From assembly GCF_021129305.1 (NCBI RefSeq), contig NZ_JAJOMB010000005.1, forward strand, positions 1 to 64,000: a DNA stretch of 64,000 nt, written 5' to 3'. The translations under genes and the position numbers were made by a program. Origin of the DNA: Kineosporia babensis (lineage in GTDB: Bacteria > Actinomycetota > Actinomycetes > Actinomycetales > Kineosporiaceae). Positions 49,303 through 58,561 of this stretch are shown here, in pieces; the first letter of the stretch is position 1, and each line of letters opens with the position of its first letter. Below the pieces are notes generated by a model. That model was not told where the DNA came from and searched no databases. It was given only the letters and a program-made list of their open reading frames with translations.

Positions 49303-50355
49303 CTACGAAGCGGTGGACGGCATCTCCGGCGCCCGCACGTCGTAGCTCTTCGCCTTCTGCTTGAGCAGGGCCGTCAGCACGGTGGCCTTCTGCTCGCCCT
49401 GCTCCGCATCGCCCCACTGCACCAGCACGGTGCGGTTCCCGGCGTTCTTCAGCGGGGCGGAGAGTCTCAGCCAGATCCCGTCCGGGGAGCTGGTGCCGAT
49501 CGCCTTCAGCCGGCTGCTGAGGTTCTCCGGCAGGCCCTCGCGCACCGCCAGCACCCCGCGCAGGTTGGCGACGCTGTTCTTGTGGCCGAGCTCGACCTCG
49601 ATCTGCGGCACCCCGGCCGGGACGTTCTTGGCCGGGCGGGTCTCGATCACCACGCCCTCGTCGTCGACCAGCTGCATCATCAGCATCGGGCCGGTCGACT
49701 CCCCGGCGGTGGAGTTGCCCGCCACCCGGCTCGAGGGCAGCGCCGCCACCGGCCGCCGCTCGTTCACCTCGACCTGCAGGACACCCGGCCAGGACCGGCT
49801 GACCTCGACATCCTTGACCAGCCGGAGCTTCCCGACCTGCGCACCGATCTCCCCGGTACGGGCCAGCAGGAGTGAGTGCCCCAGCTCGGTCTCCGCGACC
49901 GCGCGCACCTCGGACTCGCTGACCCGGTCCAGCCCGGCGATCTGCACCTGGTTGACCGTGGCCCACGGCGAGAAGATCACCGCCCACACACCGGCGGTGA
50001 CGGCGATCACGGTGGTCACCGCGATCAGGGTCTGCCGACGCCGGCGGGCCCGGGCCCGCGCGGCGAACCGCTGGGCCGAGGTCTTGGACACCACCGAGCG
50101 GGTCCGGACCGGGGCCGCGGCCAGGCCGGCCGAGCGACTGGCCGTGACCGTGCGCTTCGCCTTGGCCTTGGCCACCGGCTTCTTCTTCGGAGTCGGCTTC
50201 TTCTTCGGCCCAGGCTTCGGCTGAGCAGTGCTTTTACCAGCGGACGCGGCCCCGCCCGGCTTGCGTCGGGGAGCGGATCCCCGGCCCGTCGCCGTGCGGG
50301 GCGTGGCGCTTCGACCCGGTCGCCGGCCAGGTCCGCTGGAAGCGTTGCGGCTCAT
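49303..50355 (-). CDS. ftsQ: Cell division protein FtsQ with basic N-terminal tail
   Basis: Bitopic divisome protein linking FtsB/FtsL to the ring. The 350-residue product has an exceptional cytoplasmic tail of about 110 residues full of Lys, Pro and Ala (PKPGPKKKPTPKKKPVAKAK). One membrane helix (about 113-132, TLIAVTTVIAVTAGVWAVIF) follows, then a POTRA domain (VNQVQIAGLDRVSESEV) and the FtsQ beta domain. It overlaps murC by 4 bases. Confidence 0.92.
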   Translation of the reverse strand: MSRNASSGPGRRPGRSATPRTATGRGSAPRRKPGGAASAGKSTAQPKPGPKKKPTPKKKPVAKAKAKRTVTASRSAGLAAAPVRTRSVVSKTSAQRFAARARARRRRQTLIAVTTVIAVTAGVWAVIFSPWATVNQVQIAGLDRVSESEVRAVAETELGHSLLLARTGEIGAQVGKLRLVKDVEVSRSWPGVLQVEVNERRPVAALPSSRVAGNSTAGESTGPMLMMQLVDDEGVVIETRPAKNVPAGVPQIEVELGHKNSVANLRGVLAVREGLPENLSSRLKAIGTSSPDGIWLRLSAPLKNAGNRTVLVQWGDAEQGEQKATVLTALLKQKAKSYDVRAPEMPSTAS

Positions 50356-51887
50356 GCCGACCGGTGCTCGCCGTCGCTGTGGCGCAGGGCCGCCAGAATG
50401 GCCGGGCCCAGGGTGGTGATGTCGCCGGCGCCGATGGTCAGCACCAGGTCGCCCTTCTGCACCCGGGCCACCACTTCCTCGACCGCGGCCGCGGCCGTGG
50501 CCCGGTAGGCCACCTGGGACTGCGGCAGGCGTACCGCGTTCGAGACCAGTTCGCCGGTGACGCCGGGCTCGGGATCCTCCCGGGCGGCGTACACGTCGAG
50601 CACCACCACCTCGTCGGCCAGCGACAGGGCGGCGCCGAAGTCGTCGGCGAAGATCCGGGTCCGGCTGAACAGGTGCGGCTGGAACACCGCCAGCACCCGG
50701 CCCTCCCCCACCACGGCCCGGGCGGCCTTCAGTACCGCCCGCACCTCGGTCGGGTGGTGCGCGTAGTCGTCGACCACCCGCACCCCGTGCTCGGTGCCCT
50801 TGTCCTCGAACCGCCGGCGGGTGCCGCCGAAGCTGCGGACCGCGGTCAGCGCAGGCGCGCCGGAGACCCCGAAGTGCCGGGCCACGCACCAGGCCGCCAC
50901 CGCGTTCAGGGCGTTGTGCACCCCCGGGACCCGCAGCGTGACCGGGCCGATCCGGGTGCCGTCGGGCCGGGCCTCGATCGCGAACTGCACACCCTCGGGC
51001 GTCTCTTCGAGGTCGACCAGGCGTACGTCGTTGTCCTCGCCCAGGCCGTAACGGCAGATCCGCACGGCGTGGCCGGCCAGCTCGTCGTGGGCCTGCTCCA
51101 GCACCCGGCGCACGCCCGGGTCGTCGCCGCAGCCCACGACCATGCCGCCGGGCACCACCTTCTGGCTGAACTCGACGAAGGCGGCCTCGACCGCCTCGGC
51201 GCTGCCGTAGTGGTCCAGGTGGTCGGGCTCGACGTTGGTGATCACCGCGACCTCGGGCCGGTAGAGCAGGAACGAGCCGTCCGACTCGTCCGCCTCGGCC
51301 ACGAAGATGTCGCCGGAGCCGTCGTGCGCACCCTGCCCACCCTCGGTGAGCTCGCCGCCGATCGCGAACGAGGGGTCCAGCCCGCACTCGCGCAGCAGCA
51401 CCGTGGTCATGCCGGTGGTGGTGGTCTTGCCGTGGGTACCGGCGATCGCCACCGGGCGGCGGCCGGTCATCAGCGCGGCCAGCGCCTCGGAACGGTGCAG
51501 CACCCGCAGGCCCTTCTCCCGCGCCTCGAGGAGCTCCGGGTTGTCCGGCCGGACCGCGGTGGAGATCACCACGGTGGAGCCGGCCGGCACCTGGTCGGCG
51601 CTGTGCCCGATGAACACGGCGGCGCCCCCGGCCCGCAGCCCGGTCAGCACCGGGCTGTCCCGGCTGTCGCTGCCGGAGACCACGGCGCCGCGGGCCAGCA
51701 GCAGCCGGGCGATGCCGGACATCCCGGCCCCGCCGATCCCGATCAGGTGCGCGGCCAGGATCGGTTCGTCCACCAGCGGCGCACCGTCGGCGCTGGTCAC
51801 CGTGGCCTCGCCGGAGATCCGGCCACCGACCCGCTGGCCACCGATGGTGGGCACGCTCAGCTCGGCGTCCTGCTCGGGTTGCGTCAT
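50352..51887 (-). CDS. murC: UDP-N-acetylmuramate--L-alanine ligase
   Basis: Adds the first amino acid of the wall peptide. The 511-residue enzyme has IGIGGAGMSGIARLLL, the P-loop GTHGKTTTTGM, EADESDGSFL, the DHLDHYGS motif, GVHNALNAVAAW, GTRRRFE and YAHHPTEVRAVL. All ligase motifs are intact, in contrast to the murD homologue nearby. An N-terminal extension of about 40 residues precedes the core. Confidence 0.96.
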   Translation of the reverse strand: MTQPEQDAELSVPTIGGQRVGGRISGEATVTSADGAPLVDEPILAAHLIGIGGAGMSGIARLLLARGAVVSGSDSRDSPVLTGLRAGGAAVFIGHSADQVPAGSTVVISTAVRPDNPELLEAREKGLRVLHRSEALAALMTGRRPVAIAGTHGKTTTTGMTTVLLRECGLDPSFAIGGELTEGGQGAHDGSGDIFVAEADESDGSFLLYRPEVAVITNVEPDHLDHYGSAEAVEAAFVEFSQKVVPGGMVVGCGDDPGVRRVLEQAHDELAGHAVRICRYGLGEDNDVRLVDLEETPEGVQFAIEARPDGTRIGPVTLRVPGVHNALNAVAAWCVARHFGVSGAPALTAVRSFGGTRRRFEDKGTEHGVRVVDDYAHHPTEVRAVLKAARAVVGEGRVLAVFQPHLFSRTRIFADDFGAALSLADEVVVLDVYAAREDPEPGVTGELVSNAVRLPQSQVAYRATAAAAVEEVVARVQKGDLVLTIGAGDITTLGPAILAALRHSDGEHRSA

Positions 51888-51895
51888 CGGGCTTG

Positions 51896-52987
51896 TTACC
51901 TTCCTGCGTGCGAGCGGGCCGCAGCCACCTCGACCATGGACGCGAGCCGCTCGTCGGCGTCGCGGATGCCGAACCGGGCCGCCGCATCGCCCATCGCGTG
52001 CAGCCGGGCCGGGTCGCTGAGCAGCGGGACCAGCACGTTCGCGACCCAGGTGGGGGTGCAGGCGGCGTTGTCGATCAGCAGCCCGCCACCGGCCGCGACC
52101 ACCGGCTCGGCGTTGTGCCGCTGCTCGCCGTTGCCGATCGGCAGCGGCACGTAGGCGGCGGGCAGGCCCAGCGCGGTGACCTCGCTGACGTTGCCCGCGC
52201 CGGAGCGGCAGACCACCATGTCGGCGGCGGCGAAGGCCAGGTCCATCCGGTCGAGGTACTCGGTGACCACGTAGCCGGCGGGCGGCTCACCGTCGAACGG
52301 CACGCTCTTGCCCCGGCCGGCGGTGTGCAGCACCTGGATCCCGGCGCCGTTCAGCAGCCAGGCGGTCTTGCCGAAGGTGTCGTTCAGCTGCTGCGCGCCG
52401 AGCGAGCCGCCGGTCACGAACAGCGTGGTCTGGTTGGGCTTCAGGCCCAGCGCCACCCGGGCGGTCTCACGCTGCGAGTACCGGTCCAGAGTGGTGATCT
52501 GCCGGCGCAGCGGCAGGCCGATCACCTGGCCGTTGCGCAGCGGGGTACCCGGGAAGGTGACACCGACGTGCGGCGTGAGCCAGGAACCGAGGCGGTTGGC
52601 CAGACCGGGCCGGGCGTTGGCCTCGTGCACCACGATCGGCACCCCGAGGCGGCGCGCGGCCAGGTAGGCCGGCGAGGACACGTAGCCGCCGAAACCGACC
52701 ATCACGTCGGCGTCACGCAGCACCGCGGCGGCCGCGTCGATCGCAGCCTTCAGCTTGCCCGGCAGCTTGAACACCTCGGGCGAGGGCTTGCGCGGTAGCG
52801 GTACCCGGGGCATCAGCTCCAGGTCGTAGCCCGCTGCCGGGACCAGCCGGGCCTCCAGGCCCTCGGCGGTGCCCAGCGCGGTGATCTTCGTGGCCGGGTC
52901 GCGACGGCGCAGGCAGTCAGCCAGTGCCAGAAGCGGGGCGATGTGGCCGGTGGTGCCACCCCCGGCCAGTACGACGGACAGACTCAT
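51896..52987 (-). CDS. murG: UDP-GlcNAc:lipid I N-acetylglucosaminyltransferase
   Basis: Makes lipid II from lipid I at the inner membrane face. The 363-residue GT-B enzyme has GGGTTGHIAPLLALA at the N-terminus, HEANARPGLANR, the mid-loop GGSLGAQQLND (usually GGSQGA), and the C-terminal CRSGAGNVSEVTALG and PIGNGEQRHNA. Two motif residues differ slightly from the commonest form (Q to L, T to N). It overlaps ftsW by 4 bases. Confidence 0.94.
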   Translation of the reverse strand: MSLSVVLAGGGTTGHIAPLLALADCLRRRDPATKITALGTAEGLEARLVPAAGYDLELMPRVPLPRKPSPEVFKLPGKLKAAIDAAAAVLRDADVMVGFGGYVSSPAYLAARRLGVPIVVHEANARPGLANRLGSWLTPHVGVTFPGTPLRNGQVIGLPLRRQITTLDRYSQRETARVALGLKPNQTTLFVTGGSLGAQQLNDTFGKTAWLLNGAGIQVLHTAGRGKSVPFDGEPPAGYVVTEYLDRMDLAFAAADMVVCRSGAGNVSEVTALGLPAAYVPLPIGNGEQRHNAEPVVAAGGGLLIDNAACTPTWVANVLVPLLSDPARLHAMGDAAARFGIRDADERLASMVEVAAARSHAGR

Positions 52988-54246
52988 CGGCTCCTGCCTT
53001 CCCTGCGTACCGGCAGCACAGCGAGGGAACGCTGTACCAGTCCGGCCCGTGCGGCCAGTGCCTCGGCCGCTCCTGATTCGCGCCGGGCGAAGCCCAGCAC
53101 CATGCCGATCGCGGCGAGCATCGTGACCAGTGCCGTACCGCCGCTGGAGACCAGCGGCAGCGGCATCCCGACGATCGGGAGCAGGCCGACGACCCCGCCG
53201 ATGTTGATCACCGAGTGGGTGACCACCCAGACCAGAACGCCTGCGGTGGCGATCTTCACGAACAGCTCCTCGGTGCGCAGCACGATCCGGGCCAGGCTGA
53301 GACACAGGGTCAGCAGCAGACCGATCACCAGCAACGTACCGATGAGCCCGAGCTCCTCGCCGATGATGGCGAAGATGAAGTCGTTGTGCGCCTCGGGCAG
53401 CAGGCCCCACTTCTCCCGGCTGCCGCCCAGGCCGACGCCGCCCCAGCCGCCGGTGGCCAGCGCCCACTGCCCGTGCACGCTCTGGAAGCAGCCGTCCATC
53501 ACGCTCTCGCTGGAGGCGTCGCAACCCTGCAGCCAGGTGCCGATCCGGCTCAGCCGGTTCCCGCTGACCAGCACCAGCATCAGCACCGCGAACATCAGCG
53601 CGCCGGCCGCCGCGGCGAAGATCCGCAGCGGGGCCCCGGCCACGAACAGCAGCCCGGCCACGATCGCCATCACCACCATCGCGGTGCCCAGGTCCTTGCC
53701 GCCCATGATCAGCAGGAGCAGCACCCCGGCCCCCGGCACCACCGGGATCAGCGCGTGCAGCGGCTGGTCCATCAGCGAGCGCTTGCGCACCAGCACGGTG
53801 GCGGACCAGACGATCAGCGCGAACTTGCCCACCTCGGCGGGCTGCAGGTTGAAACCGGCGATCGAGATCCAGCCGTAGTTGCCGTTGGTACCGGCCCGGA
53901 ACGGCGGGATCAGGGTGAGGAACTGCAGGACGAACGAGAACAGCAGCAGCGGCCAGGACAGCACCTGCCAGGTGCGGACCGGGATCCGCGAGCAGATCAC
54001 CAGGGCCGGGAAACCGATGGCGGCGAACATCGCCTGGCGCCAGAACTCGCTGAACGGCGAGGCCCCACTGGCGATCGAGGTGACGCTGGAACTGGAGAGC
54101 ACCATCACCAGACCGATGCAGGTCAGCGTGACGGTGGCCCCCAGCACCAGGTAGTACGAGGTCAGCGGCGCGTTCAGCCGGCCGGCCACCCGCTGCCCCA
54201 GACCCGGCGAGGCGCCGGCCCGGGGCGGATCGGCGGTGACGGTCAC
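52984..54246 (-). CDS. ftsW: Division-specific SEDS glycosyltransferase FtsW
   Basis: Polymerises glycan strands with FtsI at the septum. The 420-residue membrane protein has about ten helices, the conserved acidic motif GGKDLGTAMVV with the catalytic Asp, NLQPAEVGKFALIVW, and the C-terminal GMPLPLVSSGGTALV. Its ATG overlaps the stop of the murD homologue by 4 bases. Confidence 0.95.
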   Translation of the reverse strand: MTVTADPPRAGASPGLGQRVAGRLNAPLTSYYLVLGATVTLTCIGLVMVLSSSSVTSIASGASPFSEFWRQAMFAAIGFPALVICSRIPVRTWQVLSWPLLLFSFVLQFLTLIPPFRAGTNGNYGWISIAGFNLQPAEVGKFALIVWSATVLVRKRSLMDQPLHALIPVVPGAGVLLLLIMGGKDLGTAMVVMAIVAGLLFVAGAPLRIFAAAAGALMFAVLMLVLVSGNRLSRIGTWLQGCDASSESVMDGCFQSVHGQWALATGGWGGVGLGGSREKWGLLPEAHNDFIFAIIGEELGLIGTLLVIGLLLTLCLSLARIVLRTEELFVKIATAGVLVWVVTHSVINIGGVVGLLPIVGMPLPLVSSGGTALVTMLAAIGMVLGFARRESGAAEALAARAGLVQRSLAVLPVRREGRSR

Positions 54247-55673
54247 GCCACGTCCTTCACTGCGGCGGCGAAGGCCTGCCCCCGGGCCGAGAAGGCTTCT
54301 CCCGCGGGCGCCGGGAACGCCGGGCTGAGCAGCACCGTGTCACCGGCACGGGCCACCGCTTCGGCCTGCTCGACCGCGGCACGCATCACGGGCTCGATCT
54401 GGGGCACCTCACCAGTCTCCTGGACCGCCGAGTCGAAGACCGGGACATCAGGGGCGTGTCGACCGAGCGCCTCACGGATCGCGACCGAGCCCTCGCCCGG
54501 CAGCAGCACGACGCCCCGCAGCCGGCCCGCGTACTTCTGCACGGTCGCGTCCAGGTCCACCGGAGCCGGACCGTGTCCACCGGCGATCCAGACCACCGAC
54601 TCGAAGCTGGAAAGCCCTGCGGCAACCGCGAAAGCGTCGGTGGCGGCGGAGTCGTCCACCCAGTCCACCTCGGCGCTGCGGGTGAGCAGGTTCAGCCGGT
54701 GGGTCAGCGGGTAGTAGTGCCGCAGGCCGTCACGCACCGCCGACGGGTTCACCCCGTAGGCCCGCGCCAGCGAGGCCGCGGCCAGCGCGTTGAGCACGTT
54801 GTGGGCGGCCAGCACCCCGGCGCCCGCGGTGCGGACGTCCTCAGTCGTACCCAGCTCGGCCGCCGAGGTGGTGCGCTGAGGCACGAAAGCCCGGTCGCAC
54901 AGCACGTCCTCGACCAGGCCGAGCATCGAGACCGCGGGCGTGCCGCCGGAGAAACCGACGGCGCGGGCGCCCTCGATCACGTCGGCCTCGCGCACCAGTT
55001 CCTCGGTGGCCGGGTCGGCCACGTTGTACACGCAGGCGACCTCGGTGTTCTCGTAGATCCGCCCGTAGTCCTGGGCGAGTTCGGCCGGGCCGACGTTCAG
55101 GCAGACCGAGGCCAGCGGCTGCAGCGAGGACGACCAGCGCAGCTGGTGCGCCGACAACTGCACGGCGAGGACGTCGTACGGCTGCGGGTGCAGCACCGAC
55201 TCCAGCAGTGAGGTGCCGGCCTGGCCGGTCGAGGTGGCCCGCCGGCCGTGGGCCGAGAGCATGGTGGCCAGCATCGTGGCCGTGGTCGCCTTGCCCCGGG
55301 TGCCGGTGATGGTCAGCCAGGGCGCGGGCTCCTCGGCCGGGCGCAGCTGCCAGGCCAGCTCGGCCTCGGCCCAGACCGGGATGCCCGCGGCCAGGGCGTC
55401 GCGGACCACCGGGTGCTCGGAGTCCCAGCCCGGGGAGACGATCAGCAGCTCGGCCCCGACATCGGGCAGCCCGGCCACGTGCTCGGCGCCGAACCGGATG
55501 TCCGCGCCCAGCACCTCCAGCACGGTGCCCCGGTCGCGCCGGTTGCCGGAGTCGTCGGCCTCGATGATCGTCACCTGGGCGCCGCGTTCCAGCAGCGCGT
55601 CGGCACAGGCGAAGCCCGAGATCCCGATCCCCGCGACGACGACCTTGAGGCCGTCCCACTTCAAGGACGTCAT
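54243..55673 (-). CDS. murD: MurD homologue that has lost the catalytic motifs
   Basis: In the slot of UDP-MurNAc-L-Ala--D-Glu ligase; 476 residues, in frame, with MurD-like N-terminus ([19 protein letters not shown]) and domain-3 start ([16 protein letters not shown]). But P-loop GTRGKATT (124-131) has Ala where Thr/Ser normally follows Lys; ELSSFQL is QLSAHQL (172-178, Mg Glu to Gln); about 10 residues with DHLD are deleted after LNVG (192-195); the carbamylated Lys before GRIYEN is Tyr (203); DSKATN is DSAATD (341-346); GGLAKG is GGHGPA; SPACASxD is SPAFPAPAG (450-458). It overlaps ftsW and mraY by 4 bases each. Likely a structural pseudoenzyme. Confidence 0.85.
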
Positions 55674-56755
55674 ATGCCCACCACCCACTCGGCGTAGAAC
55701 ACGCCCAGACCGAGCGCGGCGAACAGTCCGGCGATGATCCAGAACCGGATCACGATGGTCACCTCGCCCCACCCGACCAGCTCGAAGTGGTGCTGCAGGG
55801 GGGCCATCCGGAACACCCGTTTACCGGTCAGCTTGAACGAGCCGACCTGGATGATCACCGAGAGCGTGATCATGATGAACAGGCCGGCCAGCGGCACCAG
55901 CAGCAGTTCGGTGCGGGTGGTGATGGCCAGGCCGGCCAGGCCGCCGCCGAGCGCCAGCGAGCCGGTGTCACCCATGAAGATCTTGGCCGGGGAGGCGTTC
56001 CACCACAGGAACCCGAAGCAGGCGCCGGCCATGCAGACCGCGACCACCGCCAGGTCGCGCGGATCGCGGACCTCGTAGCACTGCGGGCCGGCCCCGGAGG
56101 CCAGCTGGCAGGACTGGTTGGACTGCCAGATCCCGATGATCACGTAGGCGCCGAACACCATCACGCTGGCGCCGGTGGCCAGACCGTCCAGGCCGTCGGT
56201 CAGGTTCACCCCGTTACTGGCGCCCGCGATCATGATGTACGTCCAGGCCACGTACAGGATCAGGCCGATCACCGGGCCGGCGAAGGCCAGGTCGACCGCG
56301 GTGTCACGGATGAACGAGATCGCGGTCGAGCCCGGGGTGCGGAAGCCGTCGTCCGGGAACTGCAGGGTGAGCACCGCGAAGGTGATCGAGACGAACGACT
56401 GCCCGGCCAGCTTGCCGCCGGCGGTCAGGCCGAGGCTGCGCTGTTTGCTGATCTTGATGAAGTCGTCCAGGAACCCGACCAGGCCCATGCCGGTGATCAG
56501 GTACAGCACCAGCAGGCCGGACGCGGTCGGCGGGCTCAGCGTGATCGCGTGCGCCACCACGTAGCCGATCAGCGCCGACATGATGATCACGGCGCCGCCC
56601 ATGGTCGGGGTGCCGCGCTTGACGTGGTGCGAGGTCGGGCCGTCGTCCCGGACGAACTGGCCGTACCGCCGCCGCACCAGGAACCGGATGAACAACGGGG
56701 TTCCGAAGAGTGCACAGATCAGCGACACGGCCGCGGCGATCAGGACCGTTCTCAC
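55670..56755 (-). CDS. mraY: Phospho-MurNAc-pentapeptide transferase
   Basis: Makes lipid I from UDP-MurNAc-pentapeptide and undecaprenyl phosphate. The 361-residue membrane protein has about ten helices, the DDG...KRGTPTMGG start, [22 protein letters not shown] and the active-site [12 protein letters not shown], and the late [10 protein letters not shown]. The GTG at 56755 gives the usual [11 protein letters not shown] start and forms a GTGA overlap with the stop of a short upstream frame. Confidence 0.96.
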
Positions 56756-56898
56756 GACGCTGCCTCGGTCTCTCTCGTTCGGCGCCGACCGGGGATCGGC
56801 GGCTTCGGGTACGTGCGGTGTTTCGGGGCGGTGCAACGGGGGATTGCGCGCATGCCGGACATCAGCTGGACGGACCCCCGCAAGTCCTGGGGGCGCAT
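56752..56898 (-). other. 48-codon open frame in the missing-murF gap
   Basis: An ATG frame of 48 codons ends in a TGA that overlaps the mraY GTG by 4 bases, as the stop of a real upstream neighbour would. The peptide starts [15 protein letters not shown] and is Arg/Pro-rich; it does not resemble MurF. It might be the leftover 3' end of a deleted gene or chance. The gap from murE to mraY is only 183 bases. Confidence 0.3.
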
Positions 56899-56938
56899 CG
56901 TCCGGCGCTCACCGTACCGAGCCGGGGCGGGGCCTGCT

Positions 56939-58561
56939 TCACCGGTTCCGCCCTTCCGGGAGCCGATCGGGACCTCGGTCCGCAGCCGGGCCGGTCAGGC
57001 TCAGGTCGGCCCGGGCGATCACGTCCGCGAGCACCTCCCGGTCGTCGAACGGGTGCACCACCCCGGCGATGTCCTGACCTCGCTCGTGCCCCTTGCCTGC
57101 CACCAGGACGGTTCCCTCGGGGCCGGCGTACGCGACGGCGGCCTCGATCGCCCGGCGCCGGTCGGCGATCTCGACGACCTCGGTGAGCCCGCAACCGGCG
57201 TCCAGGTTCGTTCGTGCCCCTTCGAGCACCGCAGCCCGGATCTCGGCCGGTACCTCGGAGCGGGGATTGTCGTCCGTCACCACGACCACGTCCGCGTGGA
57301 AGGCAGCCTCGGCGCCCATCTTCGGGCGCTTGGCCCGGTCGCGGTCTCCCCCGGCACCCAGAACGATCACCAGGAGGCCCTTACGGGCGGGCCGTAGGGC
57401 CTTCAGAGCGGTGGCTACGGCGTCGGGTGTGTGGGCGTAGTCCACGACCGCCAGAGGGGCGCTGGCGACCTGCTCCATCCGCCCCGGAACGGCCGGGGCG
57501 GCCGCCAGCTGACGGGCCGCATCGACGGCGGGAGTGCCGGAAGCGACCAGCATCAGCAGCGCCAGCACGGTGTTCGCGACGTTGAAGTCGCCCGGGAGCG
57601 GGCAGTGCCCCAGCACCTTCTCGCCACCGGGGCCCACCAGGACGAAGTCGGTGCCGCCCTCCTGGGGATCGGCCTCGGCCACCCTCCAGTCGGCTTCGAC
57701 ACCGGGCTTAGTGGCGAAAGTCACCACCGGGACGGCGGACTCGCGGGCGAGCCGGACCCCCCATTCGTCGTCCACGCAGATCACGCCCTGCCGGGCCCGC
57801 TGCGGGGTGAACAGCTCGGCCTTGGCCGCGAAGTAGTCCTCCATCGTGGGATGGAAGTCCAGGTGGTCCTGCGAGAGGTTGGTGAAGCCGGCCACGTCGA
57901 ACCGGATCCCGTCGACCCGGCCCAGGGTGAGGGCGTGGCTGGAGACCTCCATCGAGCAGACGTCCACCCCACGGGCCAGCATCAGCGCCATCAGCGCGGC
58001 CAGATCGGGGGCCTCGGGGGTGGTACGGACGCTGTCCACCTGCTCGTCGATGATCCGGGTGAGCACCGTGCCGATCAGGCCGCAGCGCCGCCCGGCCGCC
58101 CGCAGCGCCCCGTCCAGCAGGAACGTGGTGGTGGTCTTGCCGTTGGTGCCGGTGACGCCGAACATCAGCATCTGCTCGGCGGGCCGGCCGAACACCCAGG
58201 CCGCCAGGCCACCCAGGACCTCGCGGGGGTTCGGCACCACCACCAGGGGCAGACCGCTCTCGGCGGCCAGCTCGGCGCCCTCCGGATCGGTCAGCACCGC
58301 GGTGGCGCCCAGTTGCGCGGCCCCGGCGCTGAACTTCGCGCCGTGGGTACGCGCACCGGGCAGCGCGGCGTAGAGGTCGCCCGGCTGCACCGCTCTGGAG
58401 TCCAGGCAGACACCGGTGATCGTGACGTCACTCCAGGCCTGCGGCACGGTGGTACCGAGGACGTCGGCGACGTCGGCTAAGGATTGAGCGGGCGCGGGAT
58501 CGCGCGGCGGGACCGGCACGGTGGTCGAGGCTATCCGGTTCTGGCTACCGGTCAGGACCAC
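56939..58561 (-). CDS. murE: UDP-MurNAc-tripeptide synthetase, meso-DAP type
   Basis: Adds meso-diaminopimelate to UDP-MurNAc-L-Ala-D-Glu. The 540-residue enzyme has the P-loop GTNGKTTTTF, MEVSSHAL, the DHLDFH motif, the carbamylated Lys in YFAAKAELF, PGRMEQV, VDYAHTPDAV, and the DAP-binding DNPR (TDDNPRSE). All catalytic motifs are intact. The GTG at 58561 overlaps ftsI by 10 bases; a GTG 42 bases downstream is an alternative start. The expected neighbour murF is missing. Confidence 0.95.
   Translation of the reverse strand: MVLTGSQNRIASTTVPVPPRDPAPAQSLADVADVLGTTVPQAWSDVTITGVCLDSRAVQPGDLYAALPGARTHGAKFSAGAAQLGATAVLTDPEGAELAAESGLPLVVVPNPREVLGGLAAWVFGRPAEQMLMFGVTGTNGKTTTTFLLDGALRAAGRRCGLIGTVLTRIIDEQVDSVRTTPEAPDLAALMALMLARGVDVCSMEVSSHALTLGRVDGIRFDVAGFTNLSQDHLDFHPTMEDYFAAKAELFTPQRARQGVICVDDEWGVRLARESAVPVVTFATKPGVEADWRVAEADPQEGGTDFVLVGPGGEKVLGHCPLPGDFNVANTVLALLMLVASGTPAVDAARQLAAAPAVPGRMEQVASAPLAVVDYAHTPDAVATALKALRPARKGLLVIVLGAGGDRDRAKRPKMGAEAAFHADVVVVTDDNPRSEVPAEIRAAVLEGARTNLDAGCGLTEVVEIADRRRAIEAAVAYAGPEGTVLVAGKGHERGQDIAGVVHPFDDREVLADVIARADLSLTGPAADRGPDRLPEGRNR

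Follow-up and report, generated by a model that had tools for sequence, protein, structure and literature searches.

A MurD homologue without most of its catalytic residues is conserved in the division cluster of Kineosporia, where MurD2 and MurL likely took over its chemistry

We analysed a 64,000-nucleotide stretch of the genome of Kineosporia babensis (contig NZ_JAJOMB010000005.1, positions 1 to 64,000; hereafter the window). At the place of murD, its division and cell wall (dcw) cluster contains a gene, here called pseudo-murD (54243..55673, minus strand), whose product is a MurD-family protein by sequence comparison and predicted fold and lacks most MurD catalytic residues. Kineosporia is a genus of soil bacteria; each of its six genomes examined has the gene with an open frame, and the gene is under purifying selection. 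We consider it probable that a different ligase, MurD2, and its epimerase partner MurL took over the chemistry and that the dead MurD remains there to partner the precursor machinery in a non-catalytic role. An earlier reading of the window's letters (the original prediction) had described the protein as a dead-looking MurD whose features suggest selection; new here are the likely cause (takeover by MurD2/MurL), the finding that six of six Kineosporia genomes carry the protein, and a second case that arose independently.

The protein was compared with 39 canonical actinobacterial MurDs, and a column was called conserved when at least 92 % of these carried the same residue. The alignments took in 30 loci from 59 genomes in one search and 30 loci from 61 in another; an Acidobacteria sequence (L026) and duplicates (L007, L017, L018, L021) were left out of the canonical counts. 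Of 170 conserved columns, 123 were kept by all six Kineosporia proteins, 33 were changed in all six and 14 were mixed. Among those that differ throughout are two P-loop positions (Asn and Thr), a further Asn, a Glu, the DH.DWHG segment, the carbamyl-Lys and the Lys of both KATN and GGLAKG. The former P-loop (residues 124-131; 55281..55304, minus strand and placed by alignment, as are the features that follow) reads GTRGKATT in all six genomes and GTNGKTTT in canonical MurD; with N126 replaced by Arg and T129 by Ala, it departs from the GxNGK[ST]T pattern of MurD. Residues 151 (55221..55223) and 172 (55158..55160), which are Asn and the Glu of ELSSFQL in 39/39 canonical proteins, are both Gln, and we take them to belong to the metal/substrate site.

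The DH.DWHG segment is mutated or deleted. At the deletion site of the window's protein (residues 197-203; 55065..55085), DWHG is gone, DH is mutated and the stretch ends at Tyr203, presumably where MurD has its carbamylated Lys. This position is Tyr in the window's species, as originally noted, and Phe or Arg in others. The KATN motif is AATD here (residues 343-346; 54636..54647), Lys343 having become Ala or Ser and Asn346 Asp among the six. GGLAKG has changed to GG[HY]G.. (GGHGPAPV at residues 365-372; 54558..54581), with its Lys replaced by Pro, Asp or Thr, and the C-terminal motif APACASMD.F has been rebuilt (residues 450-461; 54291..54326). The original prediction had given SPACAS as the consensus of this last motif, which does not hold (relatives carry APACAS); the losses themselves were all found. 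The N-domain elements GIGISG and SPGW are retained in 6/6.

Sequencing or assembly error was rejected as a cause of the changed motifs, since they agree in six genomes. Chance is excluded by the alteration of one set of motifs across these genomes and by the 33/170 conserved columns that differ in every one of them. That pseudo-MurD lacks most MurD catalytic elements is well supported by the alignments. We take the Glu of ELSSFQL, the His of DH and the carbamylated Lys to have catalytic roles in MurD, and the protein is presumably made and catalytically inactive.

The homology to MurD extends over the whole length, as had been claimed. The MurD model TIGR01087 matches residues 10-473 with 231 bits (cut-off 211.95), but the model of the Mur ligase middle domain gives it a low score of 27.5 bits, versus 86 for MurC and 155 for MurE. 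An AlphaFold2 model, whose input alignment included canonical MurDs, has the three-domain MurD fold with a mean predicted local distance difference test (pLDDT) score of 86.4, compared with 91.7 for a canonical control. When this model was searched against the PDB with Foldseek, the first 33 matches were MurD structures, with template modelling (TM) scores, normalized to the query, of up to 0.81.

We estimated the ratio of non-synonymous to synonymous substitution rates (dN/dS) by GY94 for six of the fifteen Kineosporia species pairs. Many synonymous distances exceeded 1, and the FtsI estimate for one pair (G000-G061) was lost to saturation. Pseudo-MurD gave 0.033-0.127, similar to FtsW (0.051-0.123) and MurE (0.050-0.125). 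Purifying selection on pseudo-MurD is well supported, and the open frames (6/6) together with these ratios led us to reject decay. The half of the original prediction that opposed selection to decay therefore stands; the structural or regulatory role that it proposed is the best remaining explanation.

A second, intact murD had been proposed as something to look for in the rest of the genome. An ordinary one was rejected: the other MurD-like protein is MurD2 (L008:8133-9476), encoded beside murL on another contig (C1). MurD2 carries the ligase motifs GTKGKST, EVSSYQ and DHLPWH. Four residues are reported near the Glu site of MurD2 in excerpts of PMC8788868 (Glu197, Arg358, Pro433 and Phe435); by eye, all six Kineosporia MurD2 proteins have Arg, Pro and Phe at three of these sites and Asp where Glu197 is expected. 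MurL matched NF041275, a model named for Xanthomonadales, over residues 16-452 of 460 (E 1.1e-100) with 337 bits, short of the model's cut-off of 700. Four of the six Kineosporia genomes encode a second MurL-like protein (28-31 % identity; L181:2095-2982 and L182:2820-3851; also G062 and G064), and in the two stretches read its gene lies beside an open reading frame (ORF) that by eye resembles a beta-keto acid cleavage enzyme.

No protein of the window's genome exceeded the TIGR00067 cut-off for the glutamate racemase MurI (best score 27.8 bits versus 146.65), in a search that did not extend to D-amino acid aminotransferase. The same combination, MurL present and no MurI over cut-off found, was seen in 6/6 Kineosporia genomes, which are drafts except for G065 (one contig) and are 97-99 % complete. 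Conversely, all seven other Kineosporiaceae genomes, from five other genera, have MurI and canonical MurD motifs, and MurL was not found in them. The presence of MurD2 and MurL, together with the lack of a MurI over cut-off, would explain why the catalytic loss in pseudo-MurD is tolerated; MurD2/MurL likely took over the MurD chemistry.

In a sample of 394 genomes of the class, 23 were MurL-positive (E ≤ 1e-30), the window's own among them. All three MurL-positive genomes of a second genus, g81 (G155, G215 and G430), keep a MurD that ends after the middle domain (318, 338 or 346 amino acids) and has neither P-loop nor C-terminal domain; MurI over cut-off was not found in these three. Three genus mates examined (G110, G127 and G142) have canonical MurD and MurI and, from the numbering of the handles, seem to lie within the class sample yet outside the MurL matches. 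In the tree, the truncated proteins are placed with canonical MurDs from the genus g81 itself and away from Kineosporia, so the two losses are independent. The three g81 forms group together with a support of 90, and G215 with G430 at 100; they may thus stem from one loss.

The cluster murD of the other 22 MurL-positive genomes has met several fates. Four (G120, G391, G160 and G199) have a canonical cluster MurD with P-loop, DHLDW and DSKATN (the cluster position of G199 was not read), two (G256 and G376, the latter at a contig end) have a C-terminal MurD stub, and two (G083 and G230) have murL-murD2 between mraY and ftsW; for four (G088, G314, G352 and G368) the fate was not assigned. MurI over cut-off was present in G160, G199, G376 and, narrowly, G120, with G391 just below; G376 thus has MurI although its MurD was seen as a stub only. 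Two genomes of genus g103 carry a C-terminal MurD remnant of about 70-90 residues beside mraY (L161:7353-7556 and L162:8411-8650, the second at a contig end). Two genomes of genus g60 carry the murL and murD2 genes in the interval from mraY to ftsW (L165:8493-11094 and L166:13452-16083), as if murD had been replaced in place. Five of nine f36 stretches read (L163, L164, L166, L170 and L171) have two MurC-like genes around the cluster.

What both dead MurDs share is a segment of the central domain, residues 226-282 (54828..54998, minus strand, by alignment). Here the residues conserved in canonical MurD were kept in 122/126 alignment cells in Kineosporia and in 62/63 in g81, compared with 445/570 and 208/285 in the rest of the first two domains. 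Exclusion of residues 120-210, where the active site used to be, changed the latter values to 301/348 and 148/174, a gap that is smaller and still visible. Kineosporia MurD2 has 27 residues in place of these 57, of which 4-6 are identical. As the segment is kept in both lineages and short in Kineosporia MurD2, we place the retained function, by inference from the alignment, in a surface at 226-282 that MurD2 does not supply.

We propose that MurI was lost and that the ligase activity of the division-cluster MurD was no longer needed. Catalysis by MurD would have been lost on the stem of the genus Kineosporia, and the gene itself would have been retained because, in actinobacteria, a canonical MurD would have a second, non-catalytic job beyond the reach of MurD2. 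This job would most likely be done through residues 226-282, which would either contact other precursor-making proteins of the same cluster (MurG, MraY, MurC/E, FtsW) or hold MurD2 together with them. That events took this order, and that the protein acts as a scaffold or regulator, is inferred from sequences. In a wider form the proposal becomes more tentative, and we would give it slightly less than an even chance: an old second function of MurD, independent of ligation, borne by the N-terminal and middle domains, centred on 226-282 and serving division or precursor channelling, may have been preserved as dead MurD at least twice independently after takeover by MurD2/MurL.

A number of observations weigh against retention as a non-catalytic partner. 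Constraint is tighter on MurD2 (dN/dS 0.022-0.054), MurC (0.044-0.078) and MraY (0.018-0.050) than on pseudo-MurD. Weaker constraint than on MurD2 and MurC, lost catalytic residues, and stubs or loss of the gene in other MurL lineages would all suit a pseudogene early in decay, but a frame open in six of six genomes and a dN/dS near 0.1, with synonymous distances that reach about 1.3, make that reading hardly credible. The changed columns are not unusually fixed: one new state is common to all six proteins in 20/33 (four of these 20 being deleted columns), versus 322/470 invariant columns overall and 78/154 among weakly conserved ones. Since 20/33 does not exceed the overall share, the new states are settled without special fixation.

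The pace of change is likewise ambiguous. In protein trees with six of the seven other Kineosporiaceae genomes (G067 left out; 11 sequences for MurC instead of 12), the Kineosporia stem relative to the mean outgroup distance was 1.32 for pseudo-MurD versus 0.30-0.69 for six other cluster genes, and crown depths were 0.162 for pseudo-MurD and 0.159 for MurE. The stem/crown ratio of pseudo-MurD (3.60), however, equals that of FtsW (3.57) and is below that of MurC (6.37). Because the burst appears against the outgroup distance and is absent as a stem/crown ratio, a change of pace on the Kineosporia stem, canonical MurD being a slow protein, is suggested and not proven. Neither the stem burst nor fixation carries our main claim.

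The case for residues 226-282 has its own weaknesses. The segment was chosen after the data were seen, its mean identity within Kineosporia comes 57th among 476 circular windows, and the MurD2 proteins of G155 and G430 are less short there, with 41 residues (7 and 5 identical). The highest mean identity of 17 stretches in Kineosporia (0.96) belongs instead to residues 151-175 of the former active site, which hints at a retained pocket. Such a pocket would fit a ligand-sensing pseudoenzyme: with its N-terminal domain and its remodelled pocket, the protein would still bind, without catalysis, UDP-MurNAc-L-Ala or a precursor further down the pathway and would signal or buffer the precursor level to MraY, MurG or FtsW. 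The kept GIGISG and SPGW elements agree with this, as does the high identity of the stretch 151-175, which includes the two changes to Gln. We nevertheless regard a sensor as unlikely: the C-terminal domain is missing from the g81 proteins, their pocket is not changed in the same way, and the lost Asn and His are residues that presumably touch the MurNAc-peptide side.

The gene also overlaps both of its neighbours by four bases, with ATGA at the mraY stop and pseudo-murD start (55670..55673, minus strand) and GTGA at the pseudo-murD stop and ftsW start (54243..54246, minus strand). Both overlaps, which the original prediction had reported along with the full gene length and without the strand, are present in 6/6 Kineosporia genomes and allow a role in translational coupling. 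If the frame were only a spacer that couples translation of mraY and ftsW, its protein would have no function, and neither the low dN/dS nor the many canonical columns kept in all six would be needed. Moreover, the g81 genes stop before ftsW and do not overlap it, and at least seven of the 22 other MurL-positive genomes have no MurD match between mraY and ftsW (G128, G143, G157, G254, G389, G279 and G248), so that ftsW follows mraY there without it. We therefore disfavour the spacer and give it little chance. These seven genomes equally imply that the extra job of MurD proposed here is not needed in every lineage, and the known lineages with a dead MurD number only two.

Finally, the P-loop Lys128 is retained, and pseudo-MurD could be a changed but living enzyme, either one that still uses ATP through this Lys to join a different substrate or a weakly active D-Glu ligase. 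The preserved fold and the score above the MurD cut-off fit this. So does an aspartate/glutamate-type racemase on contig C1 (L012:1453-2214), which scores 299 bits against NF007569 (cut-off 417) and 246 against the broad TIGR00035 (cut-off 93) and could supply some free D-Glu. In conflict with an active enzyme, pseudo-MurD has lost the Thr/Ser that follows the P-loop Lys, the Glu and His, the carbamyl-Lys and the Lys of both KATN and GGLAKG, residues whose roles are partly our assumption; no MurI exceeds the cut-off in the genome, and the independent g81 form has neither the P-loop Lys nor the C-terminal domain. A living enzyme thus seems very improbable, and retention of a dead MurD as a partner of the precursor machinery remains the explanation that we prefer.

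MurD is an antibacterial target and is treated mainly as a catalyst. If our explanation is true, a dead MurD in one genus and a truncated one in a second would separate a structural role from the chemistry, and they would offer a natural way to test what keeps the genes of cell-wall ligases in the division cluster. There is also a consequence for annotation. The dead proteins of all six Kineosporia genomes pass the equivalog model that NCBI uses for MurD, and the model also accepts MurD2; automatic annotation would therefore probably report an ordinary MurD for both. A defence-related role was rejected, as no PADLOC family matched.

The pseudo-murD ORF runs on the minus strand from an ATG at 55673 to a stop that ends at 54243 and encodes 476 amino acids. 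The cluster order is mraZ, mraW, an ORF at the place of ftsL, ftsI, murE, mraY, pseudo-murD, ftsW, murG, murC, ftsQ and ftsZ. Family models confirmed three of the products; the remaining names rest on sequence and position. On the minus strand, mraY lies at 55670..56836 (TIGR00445, 312.8 bits), murE at 56939..58561 and murC at 50352..51887. ftsW (52984..54246, minus strand) was named from sequence and position and has homologues at the same place. MurC and MurE had been described as intact, and they are: both score above their cut-offs (474.8 versus 335.1 and 570.6 versus 476, respectively) and have P-loops that are intact by eye. No murF lies between murE and mraY (gap 56837-56938) or elsewhere in the window's cluster, and two MurF-family genes are found elsewhere in the genome (L009:7956-9317 and L010:7750-9219), one of which adjoins ORFs resembling, by eye, alanine racemase and D-Ala-D-Ala ligase. 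murF was likewise not seen in one (G015) of six other Kineosporiaceae clusters read. The closest named relatives are Kineosporia rhizophila (86 %) and K. mesophila (78 %), to which, by contig coordinates and scores, the handles G063 and G062 seem to belong; the Kineosporia of the window is a different one.

Pseudoenzymes such as pseudokinases conserve fold and reading frame while their catalytic residues are substituted. Pseudo-MurD resembles them in these respects and in having an active-looking relative in the same genome. We found no Mur ligase pseudoenzyme in the PubMed Central papers searched and, judged by title and abstract, no work there on a dead MurD or on murD together with peptidoglycan in Kineosporia. 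Like MurD as defined by TIGR01087, the protein is encoded between mraY and ftsW, is homologous over its whole length, has the predicted fold and scores above the cut-off; unlike MurD, it is without most catalytic residues and belongs to a genome in which no MurI exceeds the cut-off.

MurD2/MurL is an L-Glu ligase/epimerase route that bypasses MurD; according to the excerpts of PMC8788868, it was found in Xanthomonas oryzae and confirmed in Micromonospora and Salinispora, and the actinobacteria listed with the pathway are Micromonospora, Actinoplanes, Verrucosispora and Salinispora. MurL is also described in excerpts of PMC5808125. Kineosporia agrees with this pathway in its adjacent murD2-murL and in having no MurI over cut-off. 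It differs in retaining a dead MurD, and the excerpts of PMC8788868 mention neither such a protein nor Kineosporia. In Thermotoga maritima, MurD, MurE and MurF reportedly bind MurG (excerpts of PMC6420597), which makes a contact role for MurD plausible. Complexes scaffolded by MurG/MreB, however, contain ordinary ligases, and that a dead MurD would be kept for its contacts is our own proposal.

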